From the NCBI GenBank assembly GCA_902728285.1, contig CACVBU010000404.1, forward strand, positions 137,994 through 201,993: DNA of 64,000 bases. The letters run 5' to 3'. The translations under genes were made by a program, and so were the position numbers. Shown here piece after piece: positions 3,811 to 60,700 of this stretch (its first letter is position 1; each line of letters starts with the position of its first letter). The notes under the pieces were generated by a model that ran no database searches, had not been told where the DNA came from, and was given only the letters and a program-made list of their open reading frames with translations. Source of the DNA: Clytia hemisphaerica (taxonomy: Eukaryota; Cnidaria; Hydrozoa; Leptothecata; Clytiidae).

Positions 3811-4075
3811 GTACCCCCTAAGAAAATAGGTACCCCCTGAATTTTAGGTACCCCCAAACAACAGACGTTAGTAGGTACCCCCTGTGATTGGTACCCCCTG
3901 TGACTTGAGTATATGTCAAGAAATGAAAAAATTGTATATTCTTACAATTAAAAAGAATAATGATAGTTAGATAAAAGCAAGATAAAATATAGTTCCCAAG
4001 CCCCCAGACCTTACTGCATAAAAGTTAGATACCCCCAGAGATCATAGGTACCCCCTGAAATTAAAAAAAAATCCA
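3811..4075. repeat. Degenerate minisatellite of C-run units
   Basis: About six copies of a unit close to TAGGTACCCCCTGA are spaced unevenly between 3808 and 4058. The LINE 5' junction falls at the first unit, so the LINE was probably inserted into, or truncated at, this repeat. Function unknown. Confidence 0.6.
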
Positions 4076-27246: not shown

Positions 27247-27432
27247 CTTGATTATTTGTTATGAAGACTCGCTCGCTCAAACATGATGTAATGGTGTAAT
27301 GACGTAAGACATTTTTCCGATATTTGCTGACACTGCATAATATTTACAACAAATTTACTGACCAGCCGAATGATCACTGGGTATCCACACGATCAAAATG
27401 TACTTACCAAAACAGCAAGGATGAAGGACAAA
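27247..27432. other. Upstream region of the ULK3-like kinase
   Basis: This short stretch before the kinase start (minus strand) contains ATGACGTAA at about 27300, a CREB/ATF-like half site. I see no TATA box. A TIR element begins at 27433. Confidence 0.3.
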
Positions 27433-35779: not shown

Positions 35780-35828
35780 AAAATAAACCAAAACAAAAGC
35801 AACAAACAAGCATAAAACTACAACAATA

Positions 35829-38477: not shown

Positions 38478-41400
38478 ATGACAGCTTCATTTTATATAAC
38501 GTTATTACTTTTCAGTTTGCTGGGAGGTATACATTCAGCTATTACGCCTTGCCCTGAGAATTGGACACTTTTATCAAGATCAAATTTATGTGTGCGATTA
38601 CAAAATGCAACGTATTTCGACCATAGTATTGGTCTGTGTTCGATTGATGAGATTCATTTACAAGGTTCTGAGACTCGTGTTTGGCCTTTGCTACTTGGCT
38701 TTCAGGATGTTGAAACTGACGATTTTTCTCTCCTGGATATTACTCTTGGATCAAACGTTAAGCGATTGTGGACAGTGCTAGCTAATGGAACATGCTCGAA
38801 ACGAAACAAAACTCATTCAAGTTGGGAGACAAGCTTGGAGATGTCTTGTGATGACACTTCGGAGCTGATCCATTCAGTCTGTATACTACCTTCAAGAATA
38901 ACTCCTATAGACACATCTGAATTTAGAGACTACCATTTTAGTGCTTCATCTTTTTACACAGAAAACAAAACTTTTGGCTTACTTAAATACGAACCTCAAA
39001 ACATTGCTTTGAACAAAACTTTCCGAATCGGTCTATTTGAAGGGGCTGGCTGGTGTTCAAACACAGATTTTGAAAATGAGTTTTGGCAAATTGATTTTCC
39101 TGGCCAAGTATGGATGTCAGGTCTTTACATACAAAATGGAATCGTCAAAAATTGTTCATTATGGATCTCAAAATTTCTTTTAAATTATCATAATGGCGAG
39201 GGATGGCTTTCTGCTTATGTGAACGATACTAACCAAAGTGCAGACTTTCAGAATGAGCATGGCTCGTTTCGATATTGGTTTGACTACCCAATTGAAGTCG
39301 AAAAACTTCGCCTGGAACCTCTTGAATATGAATCAAACTGTTTAGACAGTAATGATACGGAATTTGATCGATTTTGCATGCGCATTCAATTCTATGGCTA
39401 CTACATTCGAAAAGATTTCGGGCTTCGAGTTATCAAAGGTCACGATTTATCACAAAAACATGTAAGATAAATTAAATCTTTTCACTGGAAATTTAAATTA
39501 ACTTGCCATGCTAAGACCTGAGCGCCCTTATTGATGTATTTTTTAATGGAAATATAAGTAAGATGTGATTAAGCTTTTTCTCTTGTAAACTTTTCTCCGA
39601 CTTTTCAACGCTCATGGGAAAATTTTACTCAACTTGAACCATGACAAAAAGGTCCTTTTCAAAAATTTTTATGCAGTTTCGTACTTTAAATACACAAAAT
39701 AAGCTGATTAGTTTTGAGCAGGAAGGCCTTCCCTACTCTACTCTTCCACGTTTATCGTCTGCCGTTTTGTATGACAATGAATTTTGATATTAGCCGTAGA
39801 TTTGCAGGTCTGTATACAGACTAGACCTCCTAAAAAACAGTCGAAAGATGATAGCAAATTTGAAATAATAATCGGGGAATAGTTACTAAAAATTTTTGGA
39901 TTGGTTCATCACCCCCCCCCCCCCTTGACAAAAAAAGATTTCGATTTTTATTCCTCTTCAATTAAGTACGCACCATATTGTAAATACCAGGTTGTGAAAT
40001 TTTAAGAGATTAATTACTAAATATGTACTGAGCTTTAAACTAGAACGATAAACTTGCTACATGATTTACAGAAATTAACTGTGCTTAATTGTACGGGTCG
40101 ATTTCCAAAATACTGCTCTGTTCATAAAAAATATTTTAGATGATTCGAATAGAACATAATAACCTATACGAACTTATTCAAGCAAAGAAGACAATTAAGG
40201 GAACCTATACCATAATTCTGAATTCCTTTGTTTTAATCAGGTTGGTTCACTCGATGAAACATCAGAGACATCTCCAATACCATGGCCTTCTGGATCGTAT
40301 GCGTTACTGAAAACAAACCAAAAATGTCCTAGAACTACCCAAGGAGTGGTTTTAACTGGCTCACTCATTTGGAAAAGCATTGGCACCGGAAACTCGTCAT
40401 CCGCATTCGTTAAACAAGACGTCTGCATCCACAAAAATAACAATAATTCTACTACGGACAACATATCTTTTCCGTCCGCTGATTATTGTATATACGGAAT
40501 ATATTCCTGTCCAGATGGCTTTACGGAGAATCAGTTAAACAGAGATGTCGCACTTGTGGAAGAACATCAAAATCCTACTTTTGTTCAAGGTATATCAAAA
40601 CTTTCTGTCCCTTTCGTATTACGTTTTGACATTTACGAGCTATAAAAGTGCTACGAGCGACTCATTTTCTCATGTTACCCAGAAGTAGCCAATCCTTGAC
40701 TCGTTGGCTTTTTGAATTTATTACGATTAGGATTCTTTTGGCAGCGGCGAAGCATTGCATATATATATATTATATTCTTGTGCAAAACTCCCTTACAAAG
40801 GTTCAGTGACGTGAAATCCTCACCACAATTTTTAGCGCAAGCCCGTCACAGAAGCATTTTTTTTCCGTAGACGGGCGGAAATATCTTTAATGGTCGGAAA
40901 TATCATAGCGTAATGGTCGGAAATATCATTTGATGGTCGAATATCCAAAACTCTGAAAATTTGGAAATTTAATGGTCGGAAATATAATTTGAAGGTCGGA
41001 AATATCTTTTAATGGTCGGAAATTAAGTCAATTTTACAAAATTAAGGGGGTCAGGGGAGTTAGAAGCCGCCTTTGAGTGAAATTTCAGCCTCTATAAGCT
41101 TTCGAAGAGTACCATATTTGATTTTCCTAGAAACTTTCTGGAATGTGATACGGAATCATGATTTTCAGATAAAATTTACTTTCTAACTGCCAATTACTGG
41201 CTGCAATAGAATGACCTCAGCTCTAGTCAAAAAATTGAAAAAAAGCCTTTTTGGCCCAATAAAGCACATTTGACAACTTTTTTCACCTAGTTTCATTGTT
41301 TTTATATAAAAGATTCATCATAGCCCTTACATTATAACAAATTCAGTGACCTAGACCCCTTTGAAGTTTGCCAATGGACCAAAATATCCCAAATTTTAGT

Positions 41401-44400
41401 CATTTTTCGAGCAATGTTAAGAACATTTTTAAATCAAGATAAAAAATTAATGGTAGGAGATCACATAGGTTTCTCTTTTGATCCTAAGAGACCAGGCGGT
41501 TGTCTTTCAGGAACAGAAGAGTTGGAGGAATTTTTTATTGCAATCACTTCAAATGGATAGACCAGGGACTGAACTACCAGGAATTATTATTTTGAGCTGT
41601 AACAAACTCCCCTGGGACAGGTCAGATGGCTCTAAAATACCCCTAAAATCAAATTTGTAGTGTTTTTGTGACGTCATAACTCCAGCTACCATTTTGAAAA
41701 TTTTGATTTTTTTTTGAAAATTGTATAGTACTCTAGGGGCTGAGTTAGGTCAAGAGATACGAAGTACTTACGTTTTCTAAGTTTTGAAAACGAAAGTACT
41801 TCATAGCTCGAGATAGCAAAATTTTCTGACCTTTTTCTTAGTCAGCATAAAATTTCTGATCGATTGGTATATAATATGCAGGGTTTTAAGCTTAAAAAAT
41901 ATTTTTCCTAGGCTAGCAGAGCCTAAGAGCCCATGTGAAGAAATAAAATTTTGAGTCCGCCATTATGGATTTCGAAATTCATGTAGAAAAAAAACTTTTC
42001 CTGAATTTTATTATTTGAACGGTAGGCAAGACCCTCCGAAAATTTCAAGTAAATCAAGTAAGCCAACCAAATGTTACAGCCACTTAAATTTGGAACCAAA
42101 AGTGGTCATTTCAAAAAATCAAAATCGAAAGTGCTTCATGTCTCCAGATAACGAAATTTTCAGACCATGGTTCTGAGATTTTTATTAATCAGCATAAAAT
42201 TTGTGATCGATTGGTATATAATATGTCTATGTTTAAAGTTTAAAAAAACACACGTTTTCTGACTCTTCAAGGACTATACTTTCATGATCAAACGAAAAAA
42301 TGACTATACGCCGATGTGCATACGAGACCTAACTCAGCCACTGAGTATAGTTTACTGGCCATAGTTTCAGAATCACCAAAAATCAATTTCTTATTTGGAT
42401 TTGAGAAAGCATGGTTCTACATCAAAAAACTTTTTAAGTTGCAATGCCGAAAAATGTCAAAAACTTCAAATTGGCATAAATCCCCCATTATGGATTTTCA
42501 AACCAAAATATTTTGGGATTTTACTCAGTTCGTTGTACTTAACAACATATCCAAAAATGAAAAAAAATCTAAGTTTCAAACTATTGGAACTGCCCCAAAC
42601 TGCCCCATTCTTAAAAAAAACTGGCTCTTAAACAGTTTACCAATTTCTTTATTCATCAGAGGGTGACAATTTCACAACATCACAGACCGTCCTCTTGTGT
42701 TGCCGTCAAGACGCCGTCAACCTAACGTTCCCTTTCGTCATACCATTTGCTCTAATTCCAAACAATACGACCGATTGCTCTCCTTTCGATAATTCAACTT
42801 ATGCTTCAGTATTGGTCGAACCTGATGAAGACCCTTCTTTAAGGTACTGTATACATTACCCAACAAACGATGTCGATGAATTAGTACTATCCACACTGAA
42901 CAAAATTCAGATCAAGAATCCCTTATTTCCTACCATCGTTCAAGTCAGATCAAAATCTGGAGGAAATTTCATCAACAGTGGTCTAGATGCTGATAAAGTG
43001 CTGGCTGTGCAATTATTGAATTCATCCAGTTGTCATGCCAGCGTTACGAACCTTACAAATGGTACTGGTTCAATTACGTTATCCAACTGTAACCTTGGTA
43101 GCACCATAGTAACGGTTTCCATAGAAACAGAACGAAATGTAACCGTCCAAAGTCAGATGGAACTCACATTCACAAATGATTTTAACGTCTTAGTTATGGC
43201 AGAACAAACGCAAGTCGTTGACAAACTGGATATCCATTCAAAAACTGGTTCCATTCGAACCCAGTCTTTTGCCACGGACGGTCAGTTTTATCTACACACC
43301 AATCAATCCCATCTCATGTTTTTCATTGAAACAACAGAGGAACAAATCCTTTTCGAACAACATTTGCATAGAAATAAAGAACAACAAAAACTCGTGTTTG
43401 ATATTGAGCATCGTTTTGTACATCAAGGGTTTGAAGATTCAATGTTTGTATCACTACCTCCAGACAGTAATTTTTATGCAATTTTACTTGAAGAGAAAGT
43501 TCAAACAAGCGGACGTGTTGTTCTCCTGCGCACAGATTTCTCCGCTTCCTACAGCGATTTGTATGCTATTTACCGAGCGAACCTTCAACTTTATAAAGAT
43601 ATCATCGTTGACGCCCAAGGTAAGGTTCAGTTTTCTTGTATATACGAAGGGGAGGGGAAACCATCCTGAGAGAGAAGAAAATCGGGGAAAAATTTCCTAA
43701 CCTTTACCCGGACCTTTATAGAGACTGCCGTCTGCACATACAAGCACCTATTTTTGCTTTTAAGAGGGGTCCCAGCGAGGGAACTTTTATAGTGTGACTC
43801 TAGAGTATGGTTTACTCTTCTTTGTTGGAAAAGCCTAACCGTTGAATTTACGTGTGGCATTTAACCTTGTTTTAATAAATATGTGTAGATATACCCCTTG
43901 GGGTGATTAAAAGAGAAAGATTATTATTATAAAGCATGTTACAGAAGACCTTGGTTCAAATTTTGCATTCTTACCTACCCATTTGTAAAAGAAAATTTCG
44001 AGCATGAACGATGTCAAATAACTAGAAAAGCATAATTAAAGTGCGATTTAACCCAATAATACATATAAGCATATCATAAACGACTTTGTGACTCAGAAAA
44101 ATTTACCCCTTCCTTTAAAAAAAAGGACTACTGTACTGTAAAAAGACAAAAATATTTTTTTTCAGGTAAAAATCTTGAAACTCAATTACAAGGAATCCCA
44201 CGAAATATCACCATAATTATGTTTTTGGATTCAATACGCGCCAGTTACGTCCTACCCGAAGCCACACGTCAAGGTTTAACGCCAGCTAATAAGTACCATT
44301 GGATCTCCGTATCTCCACAGTTTACAATCAGTAACACGTTCATGCGTGGACCGTGTCTCTATCACGATCCACCGTGTCACATCACGTTTGACAGCATGTG

Positions 44401-47400
44401 GAATATCTTCCATTATGATGATCTTGACGAATGTGATAAATTACCGAGCGCTTATATGCCAATCTGTACTCCTATAACAGACTTCCGTAACATGATATAC
44501 ACAAATTTAGTTCCGACTGTATTCAATGAAGTTAAACTTATCCTTGACTACATGTTAGTTGAGCTGAATGATACGAACAAAACACTGACCACGGAATTCT
44601 TTGTGAACTTCACTCAAAATATTGTATGTTTTCCTCACGGTTCTGGTCTGCGTTTTGTATTCCGTGAGACATACAATACAGAGAATACTACAATATACGA
44701 TTTTATGTGTCAACCAGGCTGGAGTGGCACTTATTGTAATGAACCGTTTTGTACAAGAGAATCTTGTAATGAAACTCATGGCAGCTGTATCGCGCCCCAG
44801 GTCTGTAAATGTCAACCGGGGCGTTTTGGGCGTGATTGTAATGGTGATTGTAAGAAAACTTGTGTTCATGGTGTTTGTAACGAGGGCATGTTTGGAGATG
44901 GGGCGTGCAAAAGTTGCGAATGGTTGTACCTAGGTTAGAAGTTTTCCTTTATTTTGTATATAGTTGAGAACTCGAACCTCTATTACTCGAATGTATCCTT
45001 TAATTCGAACAAGTTTTCTCGTCCCTTCACTAAACAATCCCTTATTAACCTCCAAATTCCTATAAGTCCTCATAATTCGAAAATTCTATAAATCGAACAT
45101 ATTTAAGTTTCCAATCAGTTCCCATGTGTGTTCGAGTTATAGAGACTCCACTGTTTCATTAGGGAGCTTTTTACTTAAGAATTTGTTTACTTGAAGTTTT
45201 CAAAAATCCACGTCATATGTTGCAGGTTCAAATAAGACTCGTGTAGAAAGAGACAACCAAAGAGATAACGTCATTTAGACGACTCTCTGTTGTTTTAAAA
45301 CTTATTTCAAGAAGATCAGGTAACTTTCAATCATAAGTTATATCTGTTATTGTTTATATTACTTCCTTAGGAAAATACTGCAATGAGTACACCATTATCT
45401 ACGGTTTCATTGCTGCTGGCATTGGAACCACAGTCTGTGGAGTGTTCCTAATGTTGTATATCGTTCGACTCATTCAAACACAAGAGCAGAATGCAGTTGC
45501 GGAGATAGAGGCGTCCGAGAAAGATTACACCATGAAATGGAATGATTTGGAAACATTTGAAGAAGTTGATTATACTTCAAAAGTTGTTGGGAAACAGATT
45601 AATCATAAGTTACTGTATACAACTTATAAGAAAGGTGCGTTGTTCTTTCTTTTCCTTTTCTTTTCAAGTTTTGGCCTCAAAGTGAGTTTCGCATTCCTTC
45701 GTACTGATAAAATGCTTACTCTATACCTTATCTGATATTCCGATGGTGTATTGGCGGCCCACGCTAAAGCTCTGAAGGAGCGGGCCAATATCACGGAGAC
45801 CTATAGTAGTCATCGTTTGATGTACCGCATCACAGTCGTGTCTAGCTGTCCTTACACTTTTTGCTTGACTATCGGTTGCACCCGACTGAATTTAGCATGA
45901 AAATCTCTGCTGCCTGAGAGACCTTACAGAAAAAATGAAAAATGGTAACCCAAAGGTTCCAGATGTTAAACTTTTCCCGACCTTCAGAGCTTTAGCGTGT
46001 CGGAAGAAAATTTCTACATCGAGTACCAGATAACTCTATACCCTGCTGGCACACAACGTTGTTCTAACGTTCATATAACGTTATTTGGACGTTATGAATG
46101 TCACATGGACGTTGAAACAATGTTGTGTGCCAGCTGGGATATAGCTTGTTATATTTAGATTTTTTTTCAACCCCTTGGACCTTGTTAGCGCCCCTCATGT
46201 ACTCCAACTTTCCCTTTTAATTAGGCACCTAACAGTAATTGAAAATCTCTTACCTTGGTTATTTCCGAAAGAAAACGAAGCCTTTCCAAGTGTTTTGACG
46301 CAAATTCGATTTGACGCTTTTGTAGGTAGCAGTCTAGGAGTTCAAAGTGACGTCAAAAAGCGAATGATTAGAACCCAAAAGCCTGAGTATCGAACCTCGT
46401 TTTTAAGTGTGCATTGTCTTTTTAGGTTTGACTTTCACTGGACAACAAGTTTTTATCAAATGTATCGAAAAACCTCACTTTCAAATCACGCTTGGTGTGA
46501 AGAACGAAATACAGCAACTTTGTCAATTATCACATAATAATATTGAACAATTATTAGGTAAGCTTGACAATCATCATCACCCCTGTGTTTAGTGTGGGAA
46601 GTCCGAGTTCTATTTCAAGGCAAGCATCTTTAGTCCCAGTCATACCGTGTAATACTGTTGTGTCAAAACTTGTAGTAACGTCCATTATGAGTTTTTGTTG
46701 TTTATTTACATTCCAAATTTTGAATCACTGCAAAATGATAAGAACCAGTATTGAGCATAGTGTGCAGATTTATATTTATATTTCTCCCCCCTGTATATGC
46801 ATCCCCCCTATTTTAAAAACATTTCGAACCCGCACTAACTACAATGGTGGTTCACAAACCGTTTAATACCAAAAAATTCAAATTTATATGGTAAGAAAGG
46901 GTATAAAATGGCGCCGCAGGCGGAAAATTTGCCATTTACATTGCTATTTTGTTGGACTATACCCAATTCTTTGACCAATTTAAGATATGATACATATCTT
47001 AACCAAAAATTTGTTATCACCCTTATTTTTATATAATACCCCCCCCCTAAAAACTCAAACCCCCCATTCCCTATAAACCCTTCTTGAAAAGAAGAGGGGT
47101 GCTCACACTATGTATTGAGTTCATATGTTCATATTCCAATCTCTCCTCATTTTTATTTTGTAGGTATCATTGTTAGTCAATCACGGGTAGGCGTGGTCAC
47201 ACCGAACGCAAACATGGGAAGTTTATATGATGTTCTACATGCGAAGAATATTTGGTTGACATGGGATGTTCGTTACTCCATGATGCAAGATATTTGCCGT
47301 GGAATGACTTATCTCCATGATATTGCAAAAATCAAACACGGGCGTTTGAAGTCCACTAACTGCTTGGTCTATAAAGGTTTGTACCAGATTGTTTACTCCT

Positions 47401-50400
47401 CAAATGGTCGGGTTTTTCGGATTCTTCTATAGTGTATACGAGCAGAGTGATCGTAGCATGAAGGTAGAGCATCCAGCTACGGTGCGCAAGGTTGTGGGTT
47501 CGATCCTCAGCTGGATTCCCAAAATGGTACTTGATGCCTCTCTGCTTGATGCTCATCAAATAAGGAGACGGATCAAGGGTAAGTGGAGAAATCCAGGGAA
47601 AGGAGTGGCGCCCTCCCCTACCTTCGGGTAGACAGCTTTACGAAAAGGGAGCTTTCGGGTCGCCCTCGACTGCGGTCGCAAACTTTACTTATAGTGTATA
47701 CAATTCATGTTAACATTTTATTAACAATCAAGTGAATCGTGTTGTCGTCTTGTTTATTCTATAGTATACTACTAGTCTCTAATTCGATCTTCAAGGGGCC
47801 AAAATGTTATGTTAAATATTTGAATTAGAGAAAATTTTGAAGAGAGTAATTTGAACCACTTTTCAACTGAGGGGACCAATATTTCAGTTCGAATTACAGA
47901 GAGACTCGAATTAGAATGAGTTGACCACAACTATGTTGGGTTTGCAAGAGTTGGTTTTTAATAAAAGTAACCTAACTTCATAGTTTCTACCCCCTACATT
48001 TAGGGGGGTTTGGGTTTTGATTATCCAAAAGCAAGGGGGGGGGTGTTGAAAGTATGACTTTCCTAAGGGGGGTCTTATTAGATAATGGGGGATTTTCCTT
48101 GAATTATGCGAAATTTCAATTTTTTTCTTTTCCAATAAAGTTTGCGTGCGACACTGTTAATTTTTTTTCTTTCCTTCTTTATTGAAGTAACTTTTTCCTT
48201 TGTAAATAGAAGTCTATATCCAAAACAAAAATCAGCTAACCTAATTATGACTCTTGTACAATCGTTTCATTTATACTGATTTTCTAAGGGGGGTGTGAAA
48301 TTTTAAATGAGTTTCCTAAGGGGGGTTAGCACTTAAGGGGGGGGGGGTCCTCTTACCTAAGGGGGGTTTTGACCCCTCTAGAAACTATGAACTTATATGT
48401 ATGGTCAGTTGTATAACTACAAAAGAAATCATCAAATTTGTGAAAGACACAGTAGAGTCTCTTTATCTCGAACCTCTATAACTCCAATGTCCCCTTAACT
48501 TGAACAAAATTTATTGTCCCTTCTCAGTTATCAATGCCTTATAAACTTTACTCCTTAACTCAGAATTTCCTTAACTCGAACAAATTTGTGTTCCCCGTAC
48601 ACGGGGTTTTGTTATGAGACTCCATTGTATTGTCACTTTTAAAGATATTGTCTTAATGTTAGCGTTTTGTCTCTCTCTTTCTTAGGCTGGCAAACGAAAG
48701 TTGGAGACATCGGCTTAAAGATGGTCAAAGCACGCAAACGCGAGAAGAGATTTGAAGCGAAACGAGATAGCTTCAAATTGAAATCGATGGATGACTCAGA
48801 GAAAGACTACCGAAGTAAGGCAGGCTACAATCCTGGCCATAAATATTGGAATTTTCTTCTATGAACTACCACTGGCTCCTTCCCTTCTTCCCTCCCTCAT
48901 TGTTGATAAGCTGCAGGAGCAAATCAGAGCTCAACAATGGGGAGGGGAGGGAAGACACTTTAGTACCAGTATATATACTACAAAAGCTGAAAAAGATGTT
49001 TGTCCCAATTGTTTATGGCCAGGATTGTAGATCATATGTGTAACTGTGTAACTATATACTACCAGTTTTTTGTCAACGTTTTTGAGTGTCCGGCAATTTA
49101 AATTGCGTGATAATTTTACCATAAGGATCTTGTAGAGAAAAAAAATTGAATCCCATTTCGAAGAGGCTCATGTTGGATTTCGTTGGAATTCAATAAAGGG
49201 GAAAACCTGTAAAATTTCTCAAACAGTTCTTTTAACAAAAGTACAAGATAAAAAAGATACAAAATGTAGGATCTTCAAGTAAAACTTATACAATTTATAT
49301 CTCTTCTTCTAAGGTCTTTTATGGACAGCTCCTGAACTAACATGTAGTGGTGCGACTAATCTTGATCAAGTTATCCGGTTCACTAATAAAGCGGACGTCT
49401 ACAGCTTCGGAATTATCCTCTCGGAAATTATTAGTCGTCGGCCACCGTATAGTGAGATCAGCGTAATGAGCATCGAACATATTGTACAAGCGGTGGCCCA
49501 TTTACGTGAACCAATAGTTAGTTTGGATCAAATGAACCCTGGCCAAGAAACAACAGGAAAGGACGTACTCAAAACTGCTGTGCATGGTAATTATCCTACC
49601 CATTGTGTGACCTTATTTTCTCGTTGATTTGGGCTTCTTTTATTGGTATCTTAAGCTACAGCTCTGATTAATTTTTCGAACCTCATCAATAAAAAGAACT
49701 CGGCCCTTAGTGACTAAATTTTGACTAGGTGACTAAAATTAGGGCCGACTAATAATTAAGGCCGACTAAGTTTTGGCCGGTATAGGTATAAAGTATTATC
49801 TACATTTTGGATTTCTCTATAGTTTGGAAAGTTAGAATGTTTAAATTAGCGACGATGTGAAGATTTACTCCTTTATTGATTTAACCATCTTTTCTTTTCA
49901 GGTACCTTACTGCGGCCAAAAGTCGACTCTTCTTTCTTCCCCGCTGACGAAAGTGAATCTTCAATCCTTAAAATGCTGATGGAAAGCTGTTGGAGTGAAA
50001 GTGAGGTCGAGCGGCCGCCCTTCGCGTACGCCCTTGAGGTGTTAGAACTTATCACGCCCTTAAAAGGATCACCTTTACTCAAACGTGCCATCCTATTGGA
50101 GCGAGAAACGGAAAGTTTGGAAAAATACATTTGCCATGACACAAATCAGATTTTTAAAGAACAAGACAAGATAGCTGATTTACTTGCACGAATGTTACCG
50201 CCCTTTTTAGCGACAAAGTTCTTGTCAGGTGACCCCATGACGCCCACACAACATAACAACGTGACTGTGCTAATTGTCTGTGTTCACGATTTAGATAGAA
50301 TGGTCACACTCTCCAGCCCAACTCAGCTGGTGGATATTATTTCTTATTTATGGAAGACTGTCCACGTTATCATCAAGAAATGCAAGTTGAAGATCAATTA

Positions 50401-53400
50401 TATTAAGAATAGAGGAGATACGCTACTTTTTGGTAAGATTTGTCTTATCTTTCTTTGTACTTTATAGGGGAATATTTTAGTTGACATGTACGAAAAAATT
50501 CTACACTTGGTAGAATTTCCTAGCAATAAATAGCCTCACCTTTCTACCAAAGTAGATATCCAGTTTTTCTGGCTCTACATTATTGGTCGTGGGTTGTGAT
50601 ATCAATTTGGATAGCTGGATCTTTTTAAAATATCAAATTAAAGTGAACAAGAATGAAGTTTCTAAATGTATCTGATCGCAACTTTTTCTTTGATTCTTAT
50701 TTGAGATAGAACAGCAAATGAAGAGGAGTTAGTCCATTTTTTCGAGAAGTGAAATCGAACTGTAATTCTTATTTAATCGAATACTTCTGATGAAGATTAC
50801 GGGTTTGATTTTAAGGACCCGTGGAAAACTCTCAAATAAATGATGAAAGTTGAGCTACAATATTTAAATGATTTGATGCAGAGAACTGGAAAAATTATAC
50901 TATCTGTTACTTTCCAGACATAACTGAAAATCCGCCCTTCGTTAAGAATGGAACAGTTTACGTCGCATACAACGACAGGGATAGCTAGGAGTTTTACAAT
51001 TTGTTAGTCCAACAAATGAATAAGATTCTCTATAACTAGTATTTGGTTTCTTATTAAAAAAAGTTATCAAAAAGTTGGGAAAAAGCTAAACTGTTACTAT
51101 TACTAAAGTTTCTTTAATGCCTTTTGGTCGCATTCTCGCTTTGCATAGCATGAATATTCTCCTCTACCCAAGTCATATCATGTGCACCACCAAAAGTCTG
51201 TTCGAAAGTCAATCGATGTCCTGTCACCCGCACTCTGCTAGTCCTCAGAATCTTGAAAAGTTCCCTCCTCACTTCTCGCAACCTCCAGTAATAAACCAAT
51301 GGGCTTACAACAGAACTGTATAGTGCAATCAATTGAACCCATTCGTAAACCACGGTCTGTTCAAAATGTGTTACTTTACTGATCATTTTCTTTAAACTAA
51401 ATATACTGATCGGGATGTAAGATATGGAAAATGCGAAAATGATGGAGAAACTGGTAATGATTGCTTTGTTTGTGTGTCTGCGAGTCGGTCGGTGATTTTC
51501 TTGCGAGTTTCGACTTCCGATCGTGATCTTGCGCCTCATTTTCGTTGCGATTAAGTATAATCTGGTGTAACAAAACACAACCGTTATATACGTTACTATG
51601 ATTATCAATCCCGCAATGCTTTGGAAATAGATCCATGATGCACTATTATGCCAACAGATGATACAAGCTATAGCCATTAGCGTCCATGATGTTGTCATGG
51701 GAACTAAGAGTTTTCTAAACTTGACGTTATTTTGGTGAAAAAAGGGGTAACATATTGCGATGTATTGCTCCAGTGTGATTGTAAAGATCGTTATAAAGGA
51801 CATGGAAACTAATGTATACCCAACGCTTTGAGTGTATTGTTCTAGCTGACAAAACTTCGTGTAATAGCCACGCCCAATCAATATGGTAGCTCCAGCTGGT
51901 AGTACAGTTAGACCGCCTGTTAAATCAAATATAGACATACATACTAGAAGATAATTGGATAATTTGTGAAGAAGGCGATTTCGCTTCATCGCTATTAAGA
52001 AGAGCAGATTGAAAGTGATTGCTAAGATGCTTCCCAAGATGTATAAACTACCAAGAACAAATAAATGTTTCCTTGTATTCTCATTATATTCTAAATAGAT
52101 GTTCTGATAACAAGAAAGATCTTGGTGGGTGTTCTCAACATTTGAGAATCTGTTATCTGGTAAAGAAGTTGTTTGATTCTGTTGGTGATTGTTGGATGAG
52201 ATATTGATTTTCCGGTACATTTGAAGCATCTTTTTCAATCAATGGTTTATCTTATTAACCTGAAAACAACGAAAAAAAAGCAGTTTTATACTTTGAAAGA
52301 TCATAATGCAATATTTAGAAATCCAGAGAAATCTAGAGCAAATTTTGAAATCTGAAAACTAAAATTGTGTCCTGGATGCAACAGTGATGTGATGTTTCTA
52401 AAAGATAACAAGGATTTTAACTTTAAACATAAAACTTGATTCCAAAGACTGTTTTCCCAAATTGACCGGATAATACTGCTGCGTCAGACCCTCCTCATGC
52501 ACACCTATTTCACTAAAGTTATTTAACCCTTCCTTCATCGCTGGATGAGACAGACCTACAAGTCTGCATCTTCTCCCTAACGTAAACTCGTAAACAATGT
52601 CATTTATCCAATCTATAGCACTTCTTCAGGATGTCATTTTATAAATCAAAATTTGCAGTAAGTTGTCTGATAAAGCATAAAAATATTCAAATTTGTTAAC
52701 TAGTGATGTGTAATGGCCAATTAATCTTACTATCTTTATCTGTTTAGCAATTCAGTGCTGATTTTTTAAGCCAAATTGGTCGTATTAGTAGATTACTAAA
52801 GATCTTAATGATAAACCGGTCTAAGATATTTTCCCTGATTGACGGTCTGAAAACACTCCATCCGTATTAGCAGAACTATTTAGACGCTTTTTTTTATACA
52901 AGAACTATTTTATAAGAACACGAGGCTGAAAATTGACCAAATCTAAGAACAAACTAAGAACAATCCTAAGCCTCAGATTTTAGAAAGCACTGTTTTCAAA
53001 CTCAAGATTAAGTTTTTAAGTAAATAAACTATTAAAAACATCGTCAGAACATTTAAGCCAGAAAATTTCAAAAAATTAAGAACAGCTTAGCCCGAGCGAA
53101 AATTTACTGGTTCTTATAAAAAAGCGTGTAAACTGTCGGACTGGCTGTAGCTTGAAAACATATCAAAATTATTGCATGTTATTCCTTTCTCTTGTTGAAC
53201 ATTTTGATGATAAAATCAAAACAAACATTATATGGGCAATCGAAGAAGATCAGTTGCAGTTGGAGTCAATTAAAGAATTAGAATTCCTATTACATCACAG
53301 ATGATTGCCGTATCTAGTTGACAAAATACAATCCATGAAAATAACGAGAAAAAAGCAAAATTCCCAGCTACTCCCCCTTTCCCCCATTTGCAATGTTCAA

Positions 53401-56400
53401 TGAACGGTGGGACGGCCATGCACACCGGGCTTTGCAGTTGGAGGGGGGATCTTTTTTCTAAATTTCTGAAGTATAACTTTCAGTGTTTTGTCAAACATTT
53501 CTGTCCATGATTGTAGCTTAAAAAGTTAAACTTTATACTTGCATTTTTCTTCTTGACAAACATTTCTATCCATGATTGTAGCTTAAAAAGTTAAACTTTA
53601 TAGTTGCATTTTTCTTCTTGAGAAAATAAGTACTGATCAACTCAAGATATTTATTAATCAAATTCTGTCAATCAATGGGCTTTTCCAGAAAAAAACCGTG
53701 CATCCCTTGTTGAGGAGGTCCAACCTTTTGTGACCTACCCCCTTGGAATTCCAGGCAATTTAAGGATCATACCTCTCTGGAATTCCGAATTTTTACAAAT
53801 TTTCAATCATTACCCCCTTGGAATTCCGCTTATTTTTGACGGATTTTCGTCTACCCTTATGGAATTCCACTGCATTTTCAAACCTTACCCCCTTGGAACG
53901 GAAATGGACCTCCTCAACAAGGGGTGCACGATTTTTTCTGGAAAAGCCCAATATATATCTTGAAATCTTAAAAAAAAATTCTGAATTAAGCAAAACGAAG
54001 ATTATACAATTTCAAAAAGGAATTTTTTTCAAAACTATTTTTTGCAACAAATAAAGACCATTTTGGGCTGTTTTGGGAAACAAAGAAAAAGCCCCTGTGG
54101 AAATAATCAGTTCTCCCTATCTGCGTCAGAGCCAATTAACTGATTTCAAATCGCGATAACTTGTGAGATTCTATCTCCTATATAATGTATTGAACAGTGA
54201 AAATTAGCAAACTATACAATCAAAAGCTATACAATCAAAACATTATGGAAACATTTTTGATGGTTTTTCCACATCTAGTCGCGAAAAATTAAATAATGAA
54301 ATGATTTCAGCGAAAGAGGGAAATGAAAGCCCATTGTCTCCTCGAAATTTTCAGTATTTGTGTTCATATTGCTAGATTTTCTATCTTTAACCTTTAAATC
54401 ATTCTGCAGCACAGAACAACTTCACCCAAAACCATGACCATAGAAATCTAACAACTAAAAATTTAAAGACCGATGTTTCATCTAGAACGTCATATTTATT
54501 CTGATTTCTAAACATTAGTTAACTTCAAAATGTTTACACAACTTATGAATTTTAATTTCAAAAAGAATCTCTTGAAAAAGGGTTTGGTTCTAGAATCTAC
54601 ATCATTCGGTTACGTCTGCCGTTGATTATTTTTCTCGAAGATTGTTCCGTTTTTTATGGACATTATTCATCATCATTAGGAAGGTCTACTCCATCGTTCC
54701 ACTTTTTGTTGACTGTCGACCTTGATCAAGCATTGTAGTTTCTTCACGTCAGCATTCATACACTCATTTTTTTTAAGCATACGGTAAATTTCGGCTGAAG
54801 CTCCCTATGCTTGGTAAAAAATTATGTAAGTTTGGAAAGTGTACATTCTTAAGAGACCAAGTTGTGTTATTTATAAGAGATTTAAAAAAAAAACACATCA
54901 ATTTTTGAATTGTGTTTGTAATTCTCTTCTTCATTCTTCTGTTATTTTCTGAAGTTTTGGAAATTATGATTCTAAAAATTTCTTTGGCTGAGCCTCAAGG
55001 TATGCTTAGTATATGTTTAATTTTTCTGGAAACTTGAGCTTCAGTATGCTTATAAACGTTATGCTTATAAAAGAAATGAGTGTATCCCACCACACGATAT
55101 TTTGATCACTTATCATTATACCAAATCTAATGGTGATAAAAGAGATTTAAATATAAAAAATACTGCAGTGATATTAGTTCTTTGAGAAAAGTACTGCTTT
55201 GTTTGATGTCAATCTTAATCTAGGAATCCTGAGGGAATATATTAGCTACCCTTACATGCCACTGAGCTCTTATATTTGTGGCCAAGGAAAAGCGAAAAAC
55301 CATGCAAGGATGTGAAATTTTGAAAAGATGATTTAATACAGGGAAATAGTCTCATAGTTTCGTATATACTTCAAGGCTGTAGTTTGAGAGGCATTGTAAT
55401 CGAATCGACTCGTAAGTTAGTACGGACATTAAAGGTTTTCAGATGAAAATTCATACGATGTAGGGATTCGACTACCACTTAATTTTTCACTGCACAACTA
55501 CCTTCAAAAATCTTTTTTTTTCATCTTCAAGGAGCTGGATTCGATTCAAACAGTAACCGTCACGCCTATGACGTCACCATGCTTGCTACGCAACTCCTCA
55601 AGACTGCTCGTTCACTCGAGATTACCAACTGCCCTGCACATAGTGTCACACTACAAGCTGGCATATATACAGGACCATGTACAAGCGCTGTGATTACGAC
55701 ATCAGGAACAGCAAACCATACTCTTATAGGTATGTCTTCAGTTTTGTACGAAAAATTTAAAGCTGTTCGATAGTAGTTCCAACCCCCTTTTTTTGGAAAA
55801 AACTTCTGAAGCTTTCTCCGCTGGAAGAGAGATAGTAAGGAAAGGAATTCTTTTTGTGAAGAAAGGGGTCGACTCAAAGTAACAATATGCCGATATTTTT
55901 CCAATTGACATCATAATGTATTTCAAACCTTTAAAACATATTTAAAATGTGTTAGGCGATTATAAAGACTCTGATTATATTCCAAACTCATAAAAAGAAT
56001 ACAAAAACCTATTGTTAAGCGGAGCGAGCAAGCGGAGCGTACCTCCTTTGTCCAAACGCGAGAAATAGTATAGACTTTCCGCATTTTCATTTTTCCATTT
56101 TTTAGTAATTCGCGCCTAAAAATAAAGCAAGTCATTTTCGGTCAACGGACGCGAGAAAAATTAGCTCCAGAGATAAACAAGAAGCAAAAAAATATATTTT
56201 TGTTTTGGATTTGTTTTGTTGTTGTCGTGCTCAGTCTTCGTCCGTTGAAATTCTGGACAGTACAGTACTTTTCTTCCCGAGAAGCTTAAGCTTTAGGTAC
56301 TCCGGATACTGGGTCTAGTAGAAATTCTAAAAAAAAGTGTCCGAATGATCAAGTAACGGTGAAACCTAGATGAAGCTTCCAATTTTTAGGTTACCATTTG

Positions 56401-56615
56401 AGTTTTCATCCACTCGGTAATTTTCTCGTTTTACAGGTGAGGCTATAGACACAGCAAGAATCTTGGAAAGGGATGCTCTACCAAATTGTGTTCACGCTTC
56501 AAAGAAAACGACTCATTACTTAAGTAATAACGAGTTTGATATCGTTTCAAGGACAACTTATCGATTACGAGTCGAGAAACAAATCTTGAGAACTTTTTGG
56601 GTAGGAGCCAAGTAA
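38478..56615 (+). CDS. Lectin/ApeC-type transmembrane receptor with kinase-homology and degenerate guanylate-cyclase domains, 12 exons
   Basis: Exons: 38478-39461, 40241-40589, 42660-43619, 44166-44933, 45371-45634, 46426-46557, 47164-47376, 48686-48814, 49314-49586, 49902-50432, 55532-55729, 56437-56615. All have GT/AG borders; intron 1 is phase 0 and introns 2-11 are all phase 1, giving 1659 residues. Order: signal peptide 1-21; C-type-lectin-like domain about 25-137; discoidin (F5/8C) about 179-307; ApeC about 341-512 (PWPSGSY, YCIYGIYSCPDGF, LLCCRQDA); a long unassigned part; EGF-like Cys-rich stalk about 943-1025; TM about 1028-1052; kinase-homology domain about 1109-1410 with HGR for HRD and DIG for DFG; helical linker; cyclase domain about 1475-1655. 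In the cyclase domain the first metal Asp is Cys1484, the guanine-selecting Glu is Lys1526, the catalytic Asn is Asp1605 and the Arg is Ile1609; only the second Asp (1530) remains. Predicted to bind glycans or microbes outside and to signal without cyclase activity. A start 29 codons upstream is possible, but ATG 38478 begins the signal peptide. The stop overlaps a donor-like AAGTAAGAT, so one more exon cannot be excluded. Confidence 0.85.
40870..41035. repeat. Minisatellite, unit near TAATGGTCGGAAATATC
   Basis: Six or seven degenerate direct copies lie between 40870 and 41030 in intron 2 of the receptor gene. No flanking inverted repeats were identified. Confidence 0.7.
41726..42350. mobile_element. 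TIR element with internal 150-base repeat, receptor intron 2
   Basis: Left end TAGTACTCTAGGGGCTGAG and right end, other strand, CTATACTCAGTGGCTGAG continue together through TTAGGTC. Two internal units (about 41800-41930 and 42120-42265) share CAGCATAAAATTT and GATCGATTGGTATATAATAT. No transposase. Confidence 0.65.
44963..45153. mobile_element. Pogo/Tigger-type MITE fragment
   Basis: Its right end, other strand, reads CAGTGGAGTCTCTATAACTC, the usual pogo/Tigger end, and several ATTCGAAC/TCGAAC words follow. The left end is decayed. It lies in receptor intron 4. Confidence 0.5.
45756..46003. mobile_element. MITE with ACGCTAAAGCTCTGAAGG ends
   Basis: ACGCTAAAGCTCTGAAGG at the left faces CCTTCAGAGCTTTAGCGT at the right. 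One end of the same family is seen again at 63826-63850. It lies in receptor intron 5. Confidence 0.65.
46041..46138. mobile_element. 98-base MITE with GCTGGCACACAAC ends
   Basis: GCTGGCACACAACGTTGTT at the left faces AACAATGTTGTGTGCCAGC at the right. AACGTT-type words repeat between them. It lies in receptor intron 5. Confidence 0.7.
46756..47112. mobile_element. Probable hAT-like MITE with 7-8 bp target duplication
   Basis: Ends CATAGTGTG and CACACTATG are flanked by TATTGAG on both sides (46749-46755, 47113-47119); the repeat is 8 bases, GTATTGAG, if the right border is moved in by one. C-runs lie near both ends. The right flank is about 45 bases before receptor exon 7. Confidence 0.6.
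47425..47690 (+). mobile_element. tRNA-derived SINE
   Basis: GGTAGAGCATCC (A-box-like) is followed 35 bases on by GTGGGTTCGATCCTC, a near-perfect B-box. A GC-rich body follows, including ATGCCTCTCTGCTTGATGCT and GGAGAAATCCAGGGA. A related body piece occurs at 15640-15710. It lies in receptor intron 7, directly after exon 7. Confidence 0.65.
47977..48391. mobile_element. TIR element with CTAAGGGGGG minisatellite core
   Basis: Ends TTCATAGTTTCTA and TAGAAACTATGAA enclose six or so copies of a CCTAAGGGGGGT-type unit. It lies in receptor intron 7. The target duplication is unclear. Confidence 0.6.
48450..48627. mobile_element. Pogo/Tigger-type MITE
   Basis: Begins CAGTAGAGTCTCTTTATCTC and ends GAGACTCCATTG followed by TA. 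It lies 58 bases before receptor exon 8. Confidence 0.6.
51114..52238 (-). CDS. Rhodopsin-family G-protein-coupled receptor, nested in an intron
   Basis: 374 residues in one exon on the strand opposite its host, wholly inside intron 10 (50433-55531) of the pseudo-cyclase receptor. It has a glycosylation-rich N-terminus and seven hydrophobic segments. The end of TM3 reads LEQYIAICYPF, so the DRY motif is E-Q-Y. The end of TM7 reads SPLVYYW, so NPxxY is SPLVY. The CWxP motif of TM6 is replaced by ISYIPIS. TM2 has SIFDLTGG with the usual Asp. Divergent motifs of this kind occur in large orphan GPCR expansions of cnidarians. Ligand and G protein are unknown. The first two Met codons are close together; the first is used here. 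Confidence 0.88.
   Translation of the reverse strand: MKKMLQMYRKINISSNNHQQNQTTSLPDNRFSNVENTHQDLSCYQNIYLEYNENTRKHLFVLGSLYILGSILAITFNLLFLIAMKRNRLLHKLSNYLLVCMSIFDLTGGLTVLPAGATILIGRGYYTKFCQLEQYTQSVGYTLVSMSFITIFTITLEQYIAICYPFFHQNNVKFRKLLVPMTTSWTLMAIACIICWHNSASWIYFQSIAGLIIIVTYITVVFCYTRLYLIATKMRRKITIGSRNSQENHRPTRRHTNKAIITSFSIIFAFSISYIPISIFSLKKMISKVTHFEQTVVYEWVQLIALYSSVVSPLVYYWRLREVRRELFKILRTSRVRVTGHRLTFEQTFGGAHDMTWVEENIHAMQSENATKRH
52881..53130. mobile_element. GTTCTTA-rich MITE
   Basis: Left TAGACGCTTTTTTTTATACA and right, other strand, TACACGCTTTTTTATAAGAA are terminal repeats. Internally TAAGAACA words repeat every 15-40 bases. It lies in receptor intron 10, upstream of the nested GPCR. Confidence 0.65.
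53677..53949. mobile_element. MITE (GGGCTTTTCCAG ends) with TACCCCCTTGGAATTCC repeats
   Basis: Ends GGGCTTTTCCAGAAAAAA and TTTTTTCTGGAAAAGCCC are flanked by AAT on both sides (53674-53676, 53950-53952). Second-level inverted repeats TTGAGGAGGTCC/GGACCTCCTCAA lie inside. The core has about five units near TACCCCCTTGGAATTCC. Same family as 8836-9041, with a different core unit. Confidence 0.75.
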
Positions 56616-57756
56616 GATCCTTCGTTTTTTCTAGTCTAAAAGGTAAGCTGCATACGTATTGCGTCAGGAGATGAACGAATATTGTTTGGCAGAAGGTTTC
56701 ATCGATTTTTCTACACTTTTAAAGGACCGCGGTGCAATGTCATTTTAGCCCTTCAATCGGGGATAACTGTTGCCAAGTTAAAGTTTGTCGTTTTTCTTTT
56801 GTACTCGATTAAACAAGTGGCAAGGAATGCTCTTCTCTTAGATACTTCTTGTTAGAAAGAGTAACATAAACCTTCTTTCACCTCTCGTAACAACTTGATT
56901 TTGATATATCTTAAAAAAAACTGAGAATTTTAAAATTCTGTATATTTTTCATCTCAATATTTTATTGATATTTTTTAGGGTAGACCTGTTTTAAAAGCTT
57001 TCTATATTTATAATACTTATTACTAGGTCATTAATAGGAAATTTAGGAATACAATTGTTCAGTAAAAGTTCATTTTCAAAGTTCATGAAGATTAGATTTA
57101 TAGAAATATTATCTCAATAAAAAATTTTGTTTCAATATTTTGGTAATTCTCCGTTTTTTCGTTTTAAGCGTGGGGGATTTTTGTTGAGTGGGACCATCTT
57201 TAAGCAATTTGCTATCTAAAGGAAGGTTTGATTGGCGGGGATTGGCAGAATTATTACGTGAAAGTCCTTACTTTATTGCCCTAAAATTACGTTACCCTAA
57301 AATTAGTTTTTTCTTTGTTCTGAAGGGCTGTATAATTTCTAAGTACGACTTTGTTATGATTTTGAAAATTTCAGTTTTTGCTAGGTGCTGTTTAGGATAT
57401 CCAATTTTCCTGATTTTTTTAATGTGCAAAGAAGTTTAGATCTTCATTTTATTACTATTTGTTGATAGTTTTATGTGTTCACCTGTCTTACGTTGTATGC
57501 CAATACTTTGTCAACATAATTAAAGAACACACAAAGGAGGAGGAGAAGAATCAATCAAACACTCCTTATATGGTGAAAACAATGTCCCTCCATCGTTGGT
57601 GCTCTTTAATGTTATTATGGAAGTATATAAACTTCAGAAATGTTATAAATCCACGAATTTTCAAATAAAGTCACACATTGAATGACAGTATCACGATATC
57701 TCGATAAAGAATTTTGACATCAATTTGGTTCCTGATGATTAGTTTCTAACTACGAA
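56616..57756. other. Intergenic, nothing coding recognised
   Basis: Lies between the receptor stop and the ER protein start. A short extra 3' exon of the receptor could be here if the donor-like AAGTAAGAT at its stop is used, but I found no matching acceptor and frame that convinced me. Confidence 0.4.
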
Positions 57757-60700
57757 ATGGAGAAAATGGGCATTATTGAACTCTTTCTTACCCTGCTACC
57801 TTTTGTACTTTGCACCGAAGAAGGGATTGTAACTTCACAAAATGTTGACGAAGTTTTGCTGAAAGACAAATTTTCATTGGTACTATTTTACGCACCATGG
57901 CAAAAAGACTGCAAGCCAGTGATTGAAATGATTGACAATTTGCGGACCAAATTCCAAAGCAGGGCAGATATTTTCATAGGCAAAGCAGACATTTATAATG
58001 ATTTGAAACTTGCAACGAAGTTTATGATTGAAGATTATTGTCTGTTGAAATATTTTGTTAAAGGAAGTCAAGTAGCTGAAAGGTATGTATTTTGTACTCT
58101 CTAAAACCTACAAAACTATTTATTATTTGGAGCAAGTTATTCTTACGAAAGTCGGTCATTATCGATTGATTATAAACTGCAGGGTTTTTCTCTTTTGTTT
58201 ACCCCATAGGGGGTAAATCTGTTAAAATCGCAATCAAGAAATATACTTGATTTCAAATTGTCATCACCTATCATATTTCACAATTTGAACTTATTGACAC
58301 GCCTGTCTCACAGCCCGGACGAAACTTTTTCCTATAGCGGGGATAAAAATATCGATTGAAATTTCAATGGGGAGAAAATTTTATTGTTCCAAGGCTAAAA
58401 AATCCAGTGGGGATGGTTTTGGAAAGCAATTTCTAAGTAATGCATTTCGAATGGTCATGAAATCAAAGTCAATTTCTCAGTGGGGCCGAAATTCTAGGGT
58501 AGTTTTCCCACCGGGAACAAAATTTTTGCCAAATTTTCCAGTGGGGCCCAAGCGGGTCTGTGACACAGGGGTGTTTAATGGGATGATTAGTTTAGAAGTT
58601 ATCAGCATTTTAAAATTTTGAGTTTATTTTAATTTAAGCGAATTTAGCTTTGTCACATTTTACAATAAATCCATTAAACCTCATCTAGACGATCTATGAC
58701 CCAAAGAATTTGCAGAATGCGCATTCTTGATAAAATTTCAACGACGTTGTTTTAGCGTTCTGTGTCAGTCGTGTCTTTTCCCTTAACTCTTAAAATCTTA
58801 TCTAGGACCCTTGGGCTTCATGAATCTTTCCAGATCTTTCATATATTTCATAACCTACTTCACTTGACGCTCTCTAATTCGATAAAATTTAAAGTCCCAG
58901 TCATCAAGAATTTCTCATAAACGACGCTCTATTATTCGATAAGCTCCATTATTCGATGGAAATCCAATTCCCCTTGAAGATCGAATTAGAGAGCGTGAAC
59001 TGTATAGACCTTATCTTGTTTTGTTTTCTAGCTATGAGGGAAATTTAAATGAAGAAGACATCGAAGTGTTTATCAACGATCAATCCAACACTGAGCTTTC
59101 AGAAGATGACTTTAAGCGCTCCTTGATCAAACTCGACACTGAAACTTTTGATCGGTACATCAGAGACAAGGAAAAAACTGCTTTGGTTTTGTTTTATGCG
59201 AAATGGAGTGCAAAATGTAAAACTTTATTGGAGACCATGAAACGTGCTGCACGACACTTCAAGGTATACTTAGCTCTGGTTTAGACGGCCCACTCTGCCT
59301 ACTTATGAATTTAATTAGGCAGAAAGCTTACTGTCTAAAGTGCATTTCCCTCTAAAGTCATTACATTGTCCTTATTTGACGTCACTGCAAAGACTCTTTT
59401 CAGTCCTTTCAATGCAAGAATTTTAACTGCCAACTTTTTACCCACCTTTTGCCTACTCCAACAATTGGAAAATGCAGGGCAGAGAGTTGGCCGTCTAAAC
59501 TAAAGCTCCTTCACTATAATGCCAGGTTTTCCTCAGTTTGTCACCAAACTCGAAGACGTAAGCAGTGCCGTAGCAACTGGGGGGGGGGGGGGGAGGGGGG
59601 GCTATGCCCCCCCAATAATTTTTTCAAAAATGGTTATTTTGCAAAATGCAAAGTTTTTCTTTTTTAATTTGTCATAATTGTCGTTATGTGCATGTTTTGA
59701 GTGTATTTTTAAGCAATCTAGAGCTCAAATTTTCAAAATTTCCCCCCTCGGGCCAAACCATGGTTGGCCCTCACGGTGTCACTAAACTTCAGCCCCCCCC
59801 CCAATATGAAAATGCTTCCTACGGCACTTCTCGTAAGTCAAACTGGCCCAAAATGTTTTCTGAAGCTCGATCAACGCTACAGGGGTGTTCCGGACGTTAA
59901 ATGTACGTTGCTAAAAAGTTAATTTTTCTGCAGCGAAGAAAGTTCTTAAAATCTGAGATTTTTCTACAATCCCTCTACTAAGTGCTTATCTTTATATTTC
60001 CGTTTTTCAGACAGAACCCCATTGTTTATTTGCCTACATCGACAGTGAAACCAACCATGAGGTCATGGTTAAAGAGAAAATCGGAGAATATCCAGCATTT
60101 AAATTTTATCCAGTCAATAACAAAGATGGTGAGATGTATCTCCCTGGCAAATTTGACGAGAGATGGTCAGAGAAAAACATTACTAAATATATGAGTATCC
60201 ATTGTAAAAGTAAAGTTGCAGAACAACATGTCATGGATAAACTGGTGAGTGGTCAAAGTGAATGTGGTATCTAATATCAGTAGGAAATCTAGAGAGAATA
60301 CTGATGCAAGGCTCTCGTTAGACTAAGAACACATTCTGGAATTTTATGTACTTCCATAACAATCATAAGATATCATTAAATGAAATTCAAGCCAAATGCA
60401 ACTATCATTCCAAAGTACCAAAGCCAAAGAGGGTTTTTAGAAAATTAATGTATACAGCTGCCCTAGGTAGGAGGAGTCTCCTATCCTCCACATGGGAAAG
60501 TAAGTAAATCCCCCGGCTGTAAAAAAGTGCATTTCATACCTTGGAGTGTGAATGATTTTCCCCATCTGAATGATTTTCTTGCACGTTCCAAATTGTGAAA
60601 TGTACTTTTCGTACCCAGATGGTTTACTCATTTTTTCCTGTGCTCCCCGTCATTTATATCCAATTTTCGAACTCTTACTTATCATACTAAATTGAATTTG

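Follow-up and report, generated by a model that had tools for sequence, protein, structure and literature searches.

A gene on the forward strand of Clytia hemisphaerica contig CACVBU010000404.1, at positions 38478..56615 of the 64,000-nucleotide stretch analysed here (the window; contig positions 137,994 to 201,993), encodes a membrane receptor in which recognition-type modules stand in front of a receptor guanylate cyclase that has lost five of its six catalytic residues. The protein descends from receptor guanylate cyclases with EGF-like repeats (EGF-type hereafter), and between it and its sister protein the cyclase domain is less conserved than the kinase-homology domain, which is the inverse of what is found among intact receptors. 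The explanation that we favour, namely a single-pass receptor whose ancestor was an EGF-type receptor guanylate cyclase, with an N-terminal block added and the cyclase dead, which signals via its pseudokinase and linker, has in our estimation about an even chance of being correct as a whole.

Gene model and module order

Twelve exons with GT-AG borders join into 4980 nucleotides of coding sequence for 1659 amino acids, in a frame whose only stop is the terminal one; intron 1 is in phase 0 and introns 2-11 are in phase 1. A database search returned an NCBI 'uncharacterized protein' of Clytia hemisphaerica (P0001, an entry holding 4 member sequences) that is equal in length to the rebuilt protein and 100% identical to it over 100%, so that the annotators must have joined the same exons. 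The rebuilt model and P0001 thus agree with the sequence-only reading of this DNA, which had proposed 12 exons in one 1659-residue frame with introns 2-11 in phase 1, and its view of a single receptor gene put together by domain shuffling, whose ectodomain carries F5/8C, ApeC and EGF-like modules and whose inner part has kinase-homology and cyclase folds, is supported. The same module order is found in the EukProt protein gene11022-12187_t (P0002; 1773 amino acids), which is 27% identical to P0001 over 92%. A split into two separate genes between exons 4 and 5 was considered and rejected, since P0001 spans the junction and P0002 spans the equivalent place. In addition, the junction sits within a conserved EGF-like motif that is continuous in P0002, which makes two genes unlikely. 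There is one transmembrane helix, at about residues 1029-1052, and 30 sequons lie outside and 2 inside. The features are:

38478..56615, + strand: gene, 12 exons
38478..39461, + strand: exon 1, beginning with a signal peptide (residues 1-20, by eye)
38541-38897, + strand: in exon 1, Cys-rich N-terminus, suggestive only of a C-type-lectin-like module (about residues 22-140)
38928-39413, + strand: in exon 1, predicted F5/8C discoidin domain (about residues 151-312; Pfam, two-sequence profile)
40241..40589, + strand: exon 2, first part of ApeC (residues 343-444; Pfam)
42660..43619, + strand: exon 3, end of ApeC (to about residue 512, about 42862), beta domain, start of the ANF/PBP1-like region
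Within exon 3, + strand: beta (Ig/filamin-like) domain (about residues 515-615; profile comparison, AlphaFold/Foldseek)
44166..44933, + strand: exon 4, remainder of the diverged ANF/PBP1-like region (to about residue 940), EGF-like repeats (residues 945-1020)
45371..45634, + strand: exon 5, end of the last EGF-like unit, transmembrane helix, juxtamembrane part, start of the kinase-homology domain
45394-45465, + strand: in exon 5, transmembrane helix (about residues 1029-1052)
46426..46557, + strand: exon 6, kinase-homology domain (Pfam)
47164..47376, + strand: exon 7, kinase-homology domain, HGRLKSTN replacing HRDxKxxN
48686..48814, + strand: exon 8, kinase-homology domain, DIG replacing DFG
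49314..49586, + strand: exon 9, kinase-homology domain (Pfam)
49902..50432, + strand: exon 10, end of the kinase-homology domain, conserved linker (about residues 1401-1470), first half of the cyclase domain (C1484, K1526, D1530)
55532..55729, + strand: exon 11, cyclase domain (T1598)
56437..56615, + strand: exon 12, cyclase domain (D1605, I1609) and stop codon

Degenerate cyclase and conserved pseudokinase

The cyclase fold is matched by Pfam Guanylate_cyc at residues 1472-1656 of P0001 (61.1 bits, cut-off 21.9, profile positions 3-181 of 183). Within it, C1484 takes the place of the first metal Asp, in an ungapped stretch, K1526 and T1598 replace the base-selecting Glu and Cys, and D1605 and I1609 the catalytic Asn and Arg; only the second metal Asp, D1530, is retained. 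The six catalytic residues D, E, D, C, N, R, whose roles are those of class III cyclases, thus read C K D T D I in the window protein, with five changed. P0002, in which the cyclase domain carries an insertion, keeps 0 of the 6, and although two places vary between alignments the residue is lost in either. Among 109 aligned receptors, 93 show the series DED[CT]NR. The exceptions number 16, namely P0001 and P0002, the EGF-type sequences P0005, P0006, P0007, P0035 and P0038, four sequences from cod (DEDCTR), P0107, P0133 and three that are gapped. With the catalytic residues lost in both known members, the cyclase looks dead as judged from its sequence, and the part of the sequence-only reading that tentatively linked microbe contact to intracellular signalling is weakened to this extent, that cyclic GMP (cGMP) as a direct output of such contact is unlikely. 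Intact cyclase exons hidden in the window were looked for by tblastn with seven receptor proteins (E 1e-3); the cyclase matches fell only in the model's own exons, and the remaining matches, at 26.4-27.1 kb, represent a separate kinase gene.

The pattern of conservation is inverted. P0001 and P0002 are 44.8% identical in the kinase-homology domain (315 columns) and 47.1% in the linker (68 columns), but only 16.4% in the cyclase domain (183 columns). Among the 93 intact receptors, a cyclase identity below the kinase-homology identity occurs in none of 4278 pairs, and where intact pairs are 38-53% identical in the kinase-homology domain (1701 pairs) the cyclase identity ranges from 44.5 to 84.1%, with a median of 65.9. 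The inversion is seen in P0001 and in P0002, for each of them against 93 of 93 intact receptors. The usual direction is also that of corals, for which the available text of one study gives similarities of 41-72% in the kinase-homology domain and 57-86% in the cyclase domain (PMC6787079). The inverted identity implies that the constraint on catalysis has been lifted, whereas pseudokinase and linker are still constrained.

The kinase-homology domain is matched by PK_Tyr_Ser-Thr at residues 1105-1334 of P0001 (110.7 bits, cut-off 23.1). It has HG for HR with the motif's Asn retained, as do all 18 aligned rows, the window protein included, and the beta3 Lys and alphaC Glu are retained in the pseudokinase. 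The linker before the cyclase, which in receptor guanylate cyclases is a coiled coil, aligns with that of the intact receptors, its homology being judged by this alignment. For a tree of the kinase-homology domain, 36 rows were hand-picked from the matches (P0001 and P0002, 14 EGF-type and 20 typical receptor cyclases; three picked rows are missing from the alignment). P0001 and P0002 come out as sisters (100/100) and are grouped with all 14 EGF-type cyclases (100/100), apart from all 20 typical ones. By its sequence, then, the chassis is that of an EGF-type receptor cyclase. A search with residues 940-1420 is in line with this: among the best 120 of 165 proteins, P0002 comes first after the query (43% over 99%), followed mostly by long ANF-plus-EGF cyclases from molluscs and other sources at 26-30%, with other kinases interspersed, and within these 120 the ApeC and F5/8C Pfam labels occur in P0001 and P0002 only. 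On the 36-row tree, intact and degenerate cyclases require at least 3 changes of state. Since all seven degenerate rows fall within the EGF-type plus ApeC group, and none of the 20 typical rows is degenerate, that group may be prone to losing the cyclase; in the 109-receptor set, six ungapped non-canonical sequences lie outside it (the four from cod, P0107 and P0133). Further EGF-type cyclases lacking catalytic residues, mostly on the Asn/Arg side, are L018, L019, P0005, P0006, P0007, P0035 and P0038, among them one from Octopus and one from Clytia.

The Clytia genome also holds intact relatives. The EGF-type cyclase P0003 corresponds to locus L014 on contig C332, in ten pieces of 82-100% identity (8 of the 10 at 93% or more), and L005 on C308 is a second Clytia gene similar to it; both loci are EGF-type and have the DED-C-NR residues. 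Three of the seven intron positions in the intracellular part of the window gene match the L014 gene within 2 residues, the L014 borders being rough tblastn ends. A further copy of the P0003-like gene (L008) lies at C332:1213, and C332:13105 scores equal to that copy. L018/L019 (C207, C351) represent a third, partly degenerate type, with N changed to K and R to S.

The ectodomain

The sequence-only reading implied that the usual ANF-type ectodomain is absent, replaced by other modules. This candidate explanation was rejected, since profile comparison points to a diverged ANF/PBP1-like domain between ApeC and the EGF-like repeats, which would mean that the new modules were added in front. Each of the E-values that follow is for a single comparison. 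Residues 501-1026 of P0001 and P0002, compared as a profile with 14 EGF-type receptor cyclase ectodomains, align with a probability of 99.8 and E 5.6e-30, in register across the beta domain and ANF region (529-878), and the EGF-like repeats appear as weak second and third alignments only (E 0.027 and 0.037); for the N-terminal block (21-500) against the same 14 ectodomains E is 0.35. With the query shortened to 501-945, E is 3.4e-17 and the score 141.6, a level that neither the reversed query (18.5) nor the best of 30 column shuffles (24.1) approaches; removal of the two closest template sequences leaves E at 5.5e-15. P0001 alone gives 1.4e-7, and 6.4e-7 over 620-945; residues 501-620 by themselves give 0.024. 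ANF/PBP1 has no Pfam match in P0001, and in P0002 the ANF_receptor model matches residues 736-891 below threshold (14.3 bits, E 0.021, cut-off 25.4). Tblastn aligns the EGF-like stretch of P0003 with exon 4 (37%, E 1.2e-8).

The N-terminal modules are recognised to different degrees. ApeC is matched at residues 343-489 of P0001 (42.5 bits, cut-off 26.5, profile positions 1-165 of 208), whereas the F5_F8_type_C match at 190-287 (25.3 bits, cut-off 28.2) remains below threshold; of the two domains that the sequence-only reading expected above the Pfam cut-off, ApeC is so here and F5/8C only in P0002, whose matches are ApeC 119.9, F5_F8 50.2, kinase 105.2 and cyclase 34.7 bits. A two-sequence profile of residues 1-523 (P0001 and P0002) matches factor VIII C domains with E 7.9e-15. 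The ApeC region has eight Cys (357, 390, 411, 418, 458, 459, 484 and 508), which is the number described for the domain in the available text of two studies (PMC8361754, PMC9585378) and one that the window protein has in common with the apextrins and amphioxus ACP1/2/3/5 as described there. As for the proposed C-type-lectin-like module, P0001 and P0002 have a Cys pattern in common in the N-terminal 120 residues, and Lectin_C gave no match in the N-terminus of either protein at E 10, the filters of the scan removing most matches with E above about 0.1. Against the PDB, the two-sequence N-terminal profile matched CLEC5A second of 3 (E 0.37), behind an unrelated regulator (0.16), and the P0002 N-terminus gave seven weak matches (E 0.73-4.7), all to snaclec-type chains and all seven, as we take them, of the C-type-lectin fold. 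What is left of this module is thus a set of sub-threshold PDB matches, by which the approximately 120 N-terminal residues are only suggestively lectin-like.

Other receptors of this kind were sought in several ways. A protein search with the ectodomain profile (E 1e-5) returned P0001 alone, P0002 lying beyond its length window; weak ApeC relatives would fall below its cut. In scans of the 417 Mb assembly, in which the window lies on contig C287, ApeC exons were found in three other places (contigs C8, C850 and C412; nine matches), none of which shares a contig with any of 70 cyclase matches, although the scans missed the window's own exons and a diverged paralogue could escape them likewise. 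The four short ApeC stretches on these contigs (L029-L032) gave no kinase-homology match below E 0.1 by tblastn with P0001 and P0002. Among 20 genome stretches adjoining cyclase matches, 8 had kinase-homology matches and 0 had an F5/8C-ApeC match.

Several known systems can be set beside the window protein. Among these, the EGF-type ANF receptor guanylate cyclases (P0003, with relatives in Mytilus, Haliotis, Potamilus, Octopus and others) have the same order of beta domain, ANF/PBP1, EGF-like repeats, transmembrane helix, kinase-homology domain, linker and cyclase, but P0003-P0007 lack ApeC and F5/8C matches in Pfam, and 9 of 14 have intact catalytic residues. P0002 is like the window protein in module order and degenerate cyclase, and differs by its stronger F5/8C and ApeC matches. 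With the natriuretic peptide receptors and typical receptor guanylate cyclases the window protein has in common a PBP1-like ectodomain (here a putative remnant), transmembrane helix, pseudokinase and cyclase fold (NPR1 match, E 1.2e-42), and it differs from them by its extra N-terminal modules, EGF-like repeats, dead site and separate tree group. ApeC has been called promiscuous, occurring in secreted or membrane-bound proteins; the architectures named in the available text are MACPF-ApeC, tandem ApeC and matrix-type, with no cyclase receptor among them, and the term 'cyclase' occurs 0 times in PMC9585378 and 'guanyl' 0 times in PMC8361754. In a survey of cnidarian recognition receptors that includes Clytia, 'ApeC' and 'guanyl' have 0 occurrences (PMC8260672). 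No description of ApeC joined with receptor cyclases was found in the literature searched, which mostly excluded subscription papers, and the statement of the sequence-only reading that the architecture had no known description is supported to that extent.

Possible mode of action and neighbouring genes

The ancestor would have consisted of a beta domain, an ANF/PBP1 domain, EGF-like repeats, transmembrane helix, pseudokinase, linker and cyclase, and two changes would separate the window protein from it, a gain of the lectin-like, F5/8C and ApeC block at the N-terminus and a loss of the catalytic residues of the cyclase. By analogy, the N-terminal block may bind a glycan, a lipid or a microbial wall component; ligand binding would then alter the dimer via the EGF stalk, and the pseudokinase-linker unit would pass on the signal by recruiting partners. 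It could also be that the receptor forms heterodimers with catalytically intact EGF-type cyclases of Clytia and damps them; L005 and L014 are intact, so possible partners exist. Given the half-site make-up of class III cyclases, two copies of the protein cannot form a complete site between them, and pairing with an intact cyclase would leave both composite sites incomplete. A bolder proposal, which we consider rather improbable, is a receptor class, present in Clytia and in the source animal of P0002, in which microbe- or glycan-binding modules (lectin-like, F5/8C, ApeC) front a switched-off cyclase; the pseudokinase-pseudocyclase would associate with active receptor cyclases of the same cell and hold them back, and in this way signal contact. 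If true, this would provide cGMP signalling with a built-in antagonist subunit and would represent a recognition receptor that belongs to none of the Toll, NOD-like and RIG-I-like families.

That the protein could instead be an active membrane guanylate (or adenylate) cyclase, in which microbe or glycan contact directly raises a cyclic nucleotide, is very unlikely. The Guanylate_cyc match is nearly full-length at 61.1 bits, the second metal Asp is retained, and some adenylate cyclases likewise have Lys and Thr as base-selecting residues, but the first metal Asp, the E/C base pair and the Asn-Arg pair are all changed, P0002 retains none of the six residues, and in the comparison of three intracellular parts conservation is lowest in the cyclase. 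Less probable still, and scarcely credible, is a decaying gene or a mis-joined model. A cyclase domain without constraint and F5/8C and EGF matches below cut-off would fit such a case; yet the 1659-residue frame is open over 12 well-bordered exons, the public model is 100% identical, and a sister protein has the same order with a strongly conserved kinase-homology domain.

Two other explanations, each of which we think doubtful but worth more weight, retain the dead cyclase. The receptor could serve adhesion or clearance, capturing a ligand or holding the cell to matrix with its inside as a passive anchor, much like the natriuretic clearance receptor; a dead cyclase would suit this, as would a large ectodomain open to glycosylation, with 30 sequons against 2 in the inside part, and F5/8C domains are common in adhesion proteins. 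A passive anchor, however, has no need of a conserved kinase-homology domain and linker, and because these are the best conserved parts (44.8% and 47.1%) we weigh pairing or scaffolding above it. Alternatively, the protein may be a pseudokinase scaffold that has no cyclase partners and recruits cytosolic proteins as a homodimer only, a possibility that overlaps with the scaffold branch of the explanation we favour, so that the two are not exclusive. The conserved pseudokinase, with its beta3 Lys and alphaC Glu, and the conserved linker speak for it. On the other side, no effector is known, receptor cyclases dimerise, and the cyclase descent together with intact cousins in the same genome makes hetero-pairing at least as easy.

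Several points weigh against the derivation from an EGF-type cyclase with an added recognition block and a dead site. D1530 and the fold remain, so that weak or unorthodox activity is conceivable. Only two members of this receptor kind are known, their placement inside the EGF-type group is supported at 92/96 only, and their stem is long, at 1.45 changes per column. The EGF matches at 945-1026 of P0001 are below cut-off (EGF_TEN 22.4, cut-off 65; EGF_STAB1-2 20.3, cut-off 27). The AlphaFold model of the N-terminal part is useless, with a mean predicted local distance difference test score (pLDDT) of 35.4, and that of the region with the beta domain is poor (mean 43.6), being better in the beta domain and in a stretch where helices and strands alternate. 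With the latter model, 13 of 1652 Foldseek matches had E of 0.001 or below (five of filamin type, five to mGluR ectodomains and three of other kinds), at TM-scores of 0.13-0.16 by query length; since ANF homologues are in the AlphaFold alignment, this result and the PDB profile search are not independent evidence. A simple pattern search of the window protein found none of the DEXD motifs named for ApeC. Finally, the proposed kind of ligand is taken over from ApeC and F5/8C proteins of other systems. Pattern recognition is extrapolated from what ApeC proteins do in other animals, and the binding data in the available text concern short secreted proteins that bind peptidoglycan (PMC8361754, PMC9585378).

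By the usual definition a receptor cyclase is an enzyme, and the available text of an oyster kinome study describes the group by its active cyclase domain (PMC4883820). The window gene is a descendant with an apparently dead site, a conserved pseudokinase and a new recognition-type front, and since genetics is possible in Clytia, the role of a receptor cyclase beyond cGMP can be asked there. Medusozoans appear to be without some prototypical recognition receptors according to the available text of the survey that includes Clytia (PMC8260672), which makes other recognition receptors in them worth testing.

The window holds other genes. A single open frame for a rhodopsin-type G protein-coupled receptor (51114..52238, - strand; 7tm_1, 64.6 bits) is nested antisense in intron 10, between the halves of the cyclase domain. 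Single open frames also encode a kinase with MIT domains (25840..27258, - strand; Pkinase 229.7 bits, MIT 108.6 bits in two stretches), presumably ULK3-like, and a polyprenyl synthetase (35787..36893, + strand; 253 bits). A reverse-transcriptase frame (1900..3843, - strand; RVT_1 130.6 bits) is, we assume, of the long interspersed nuclear element type, and exon-like frames at 57739..61043 (+ strand) are putatively thioredoxin/protein disulphide isomerase-like, as judged by eye.

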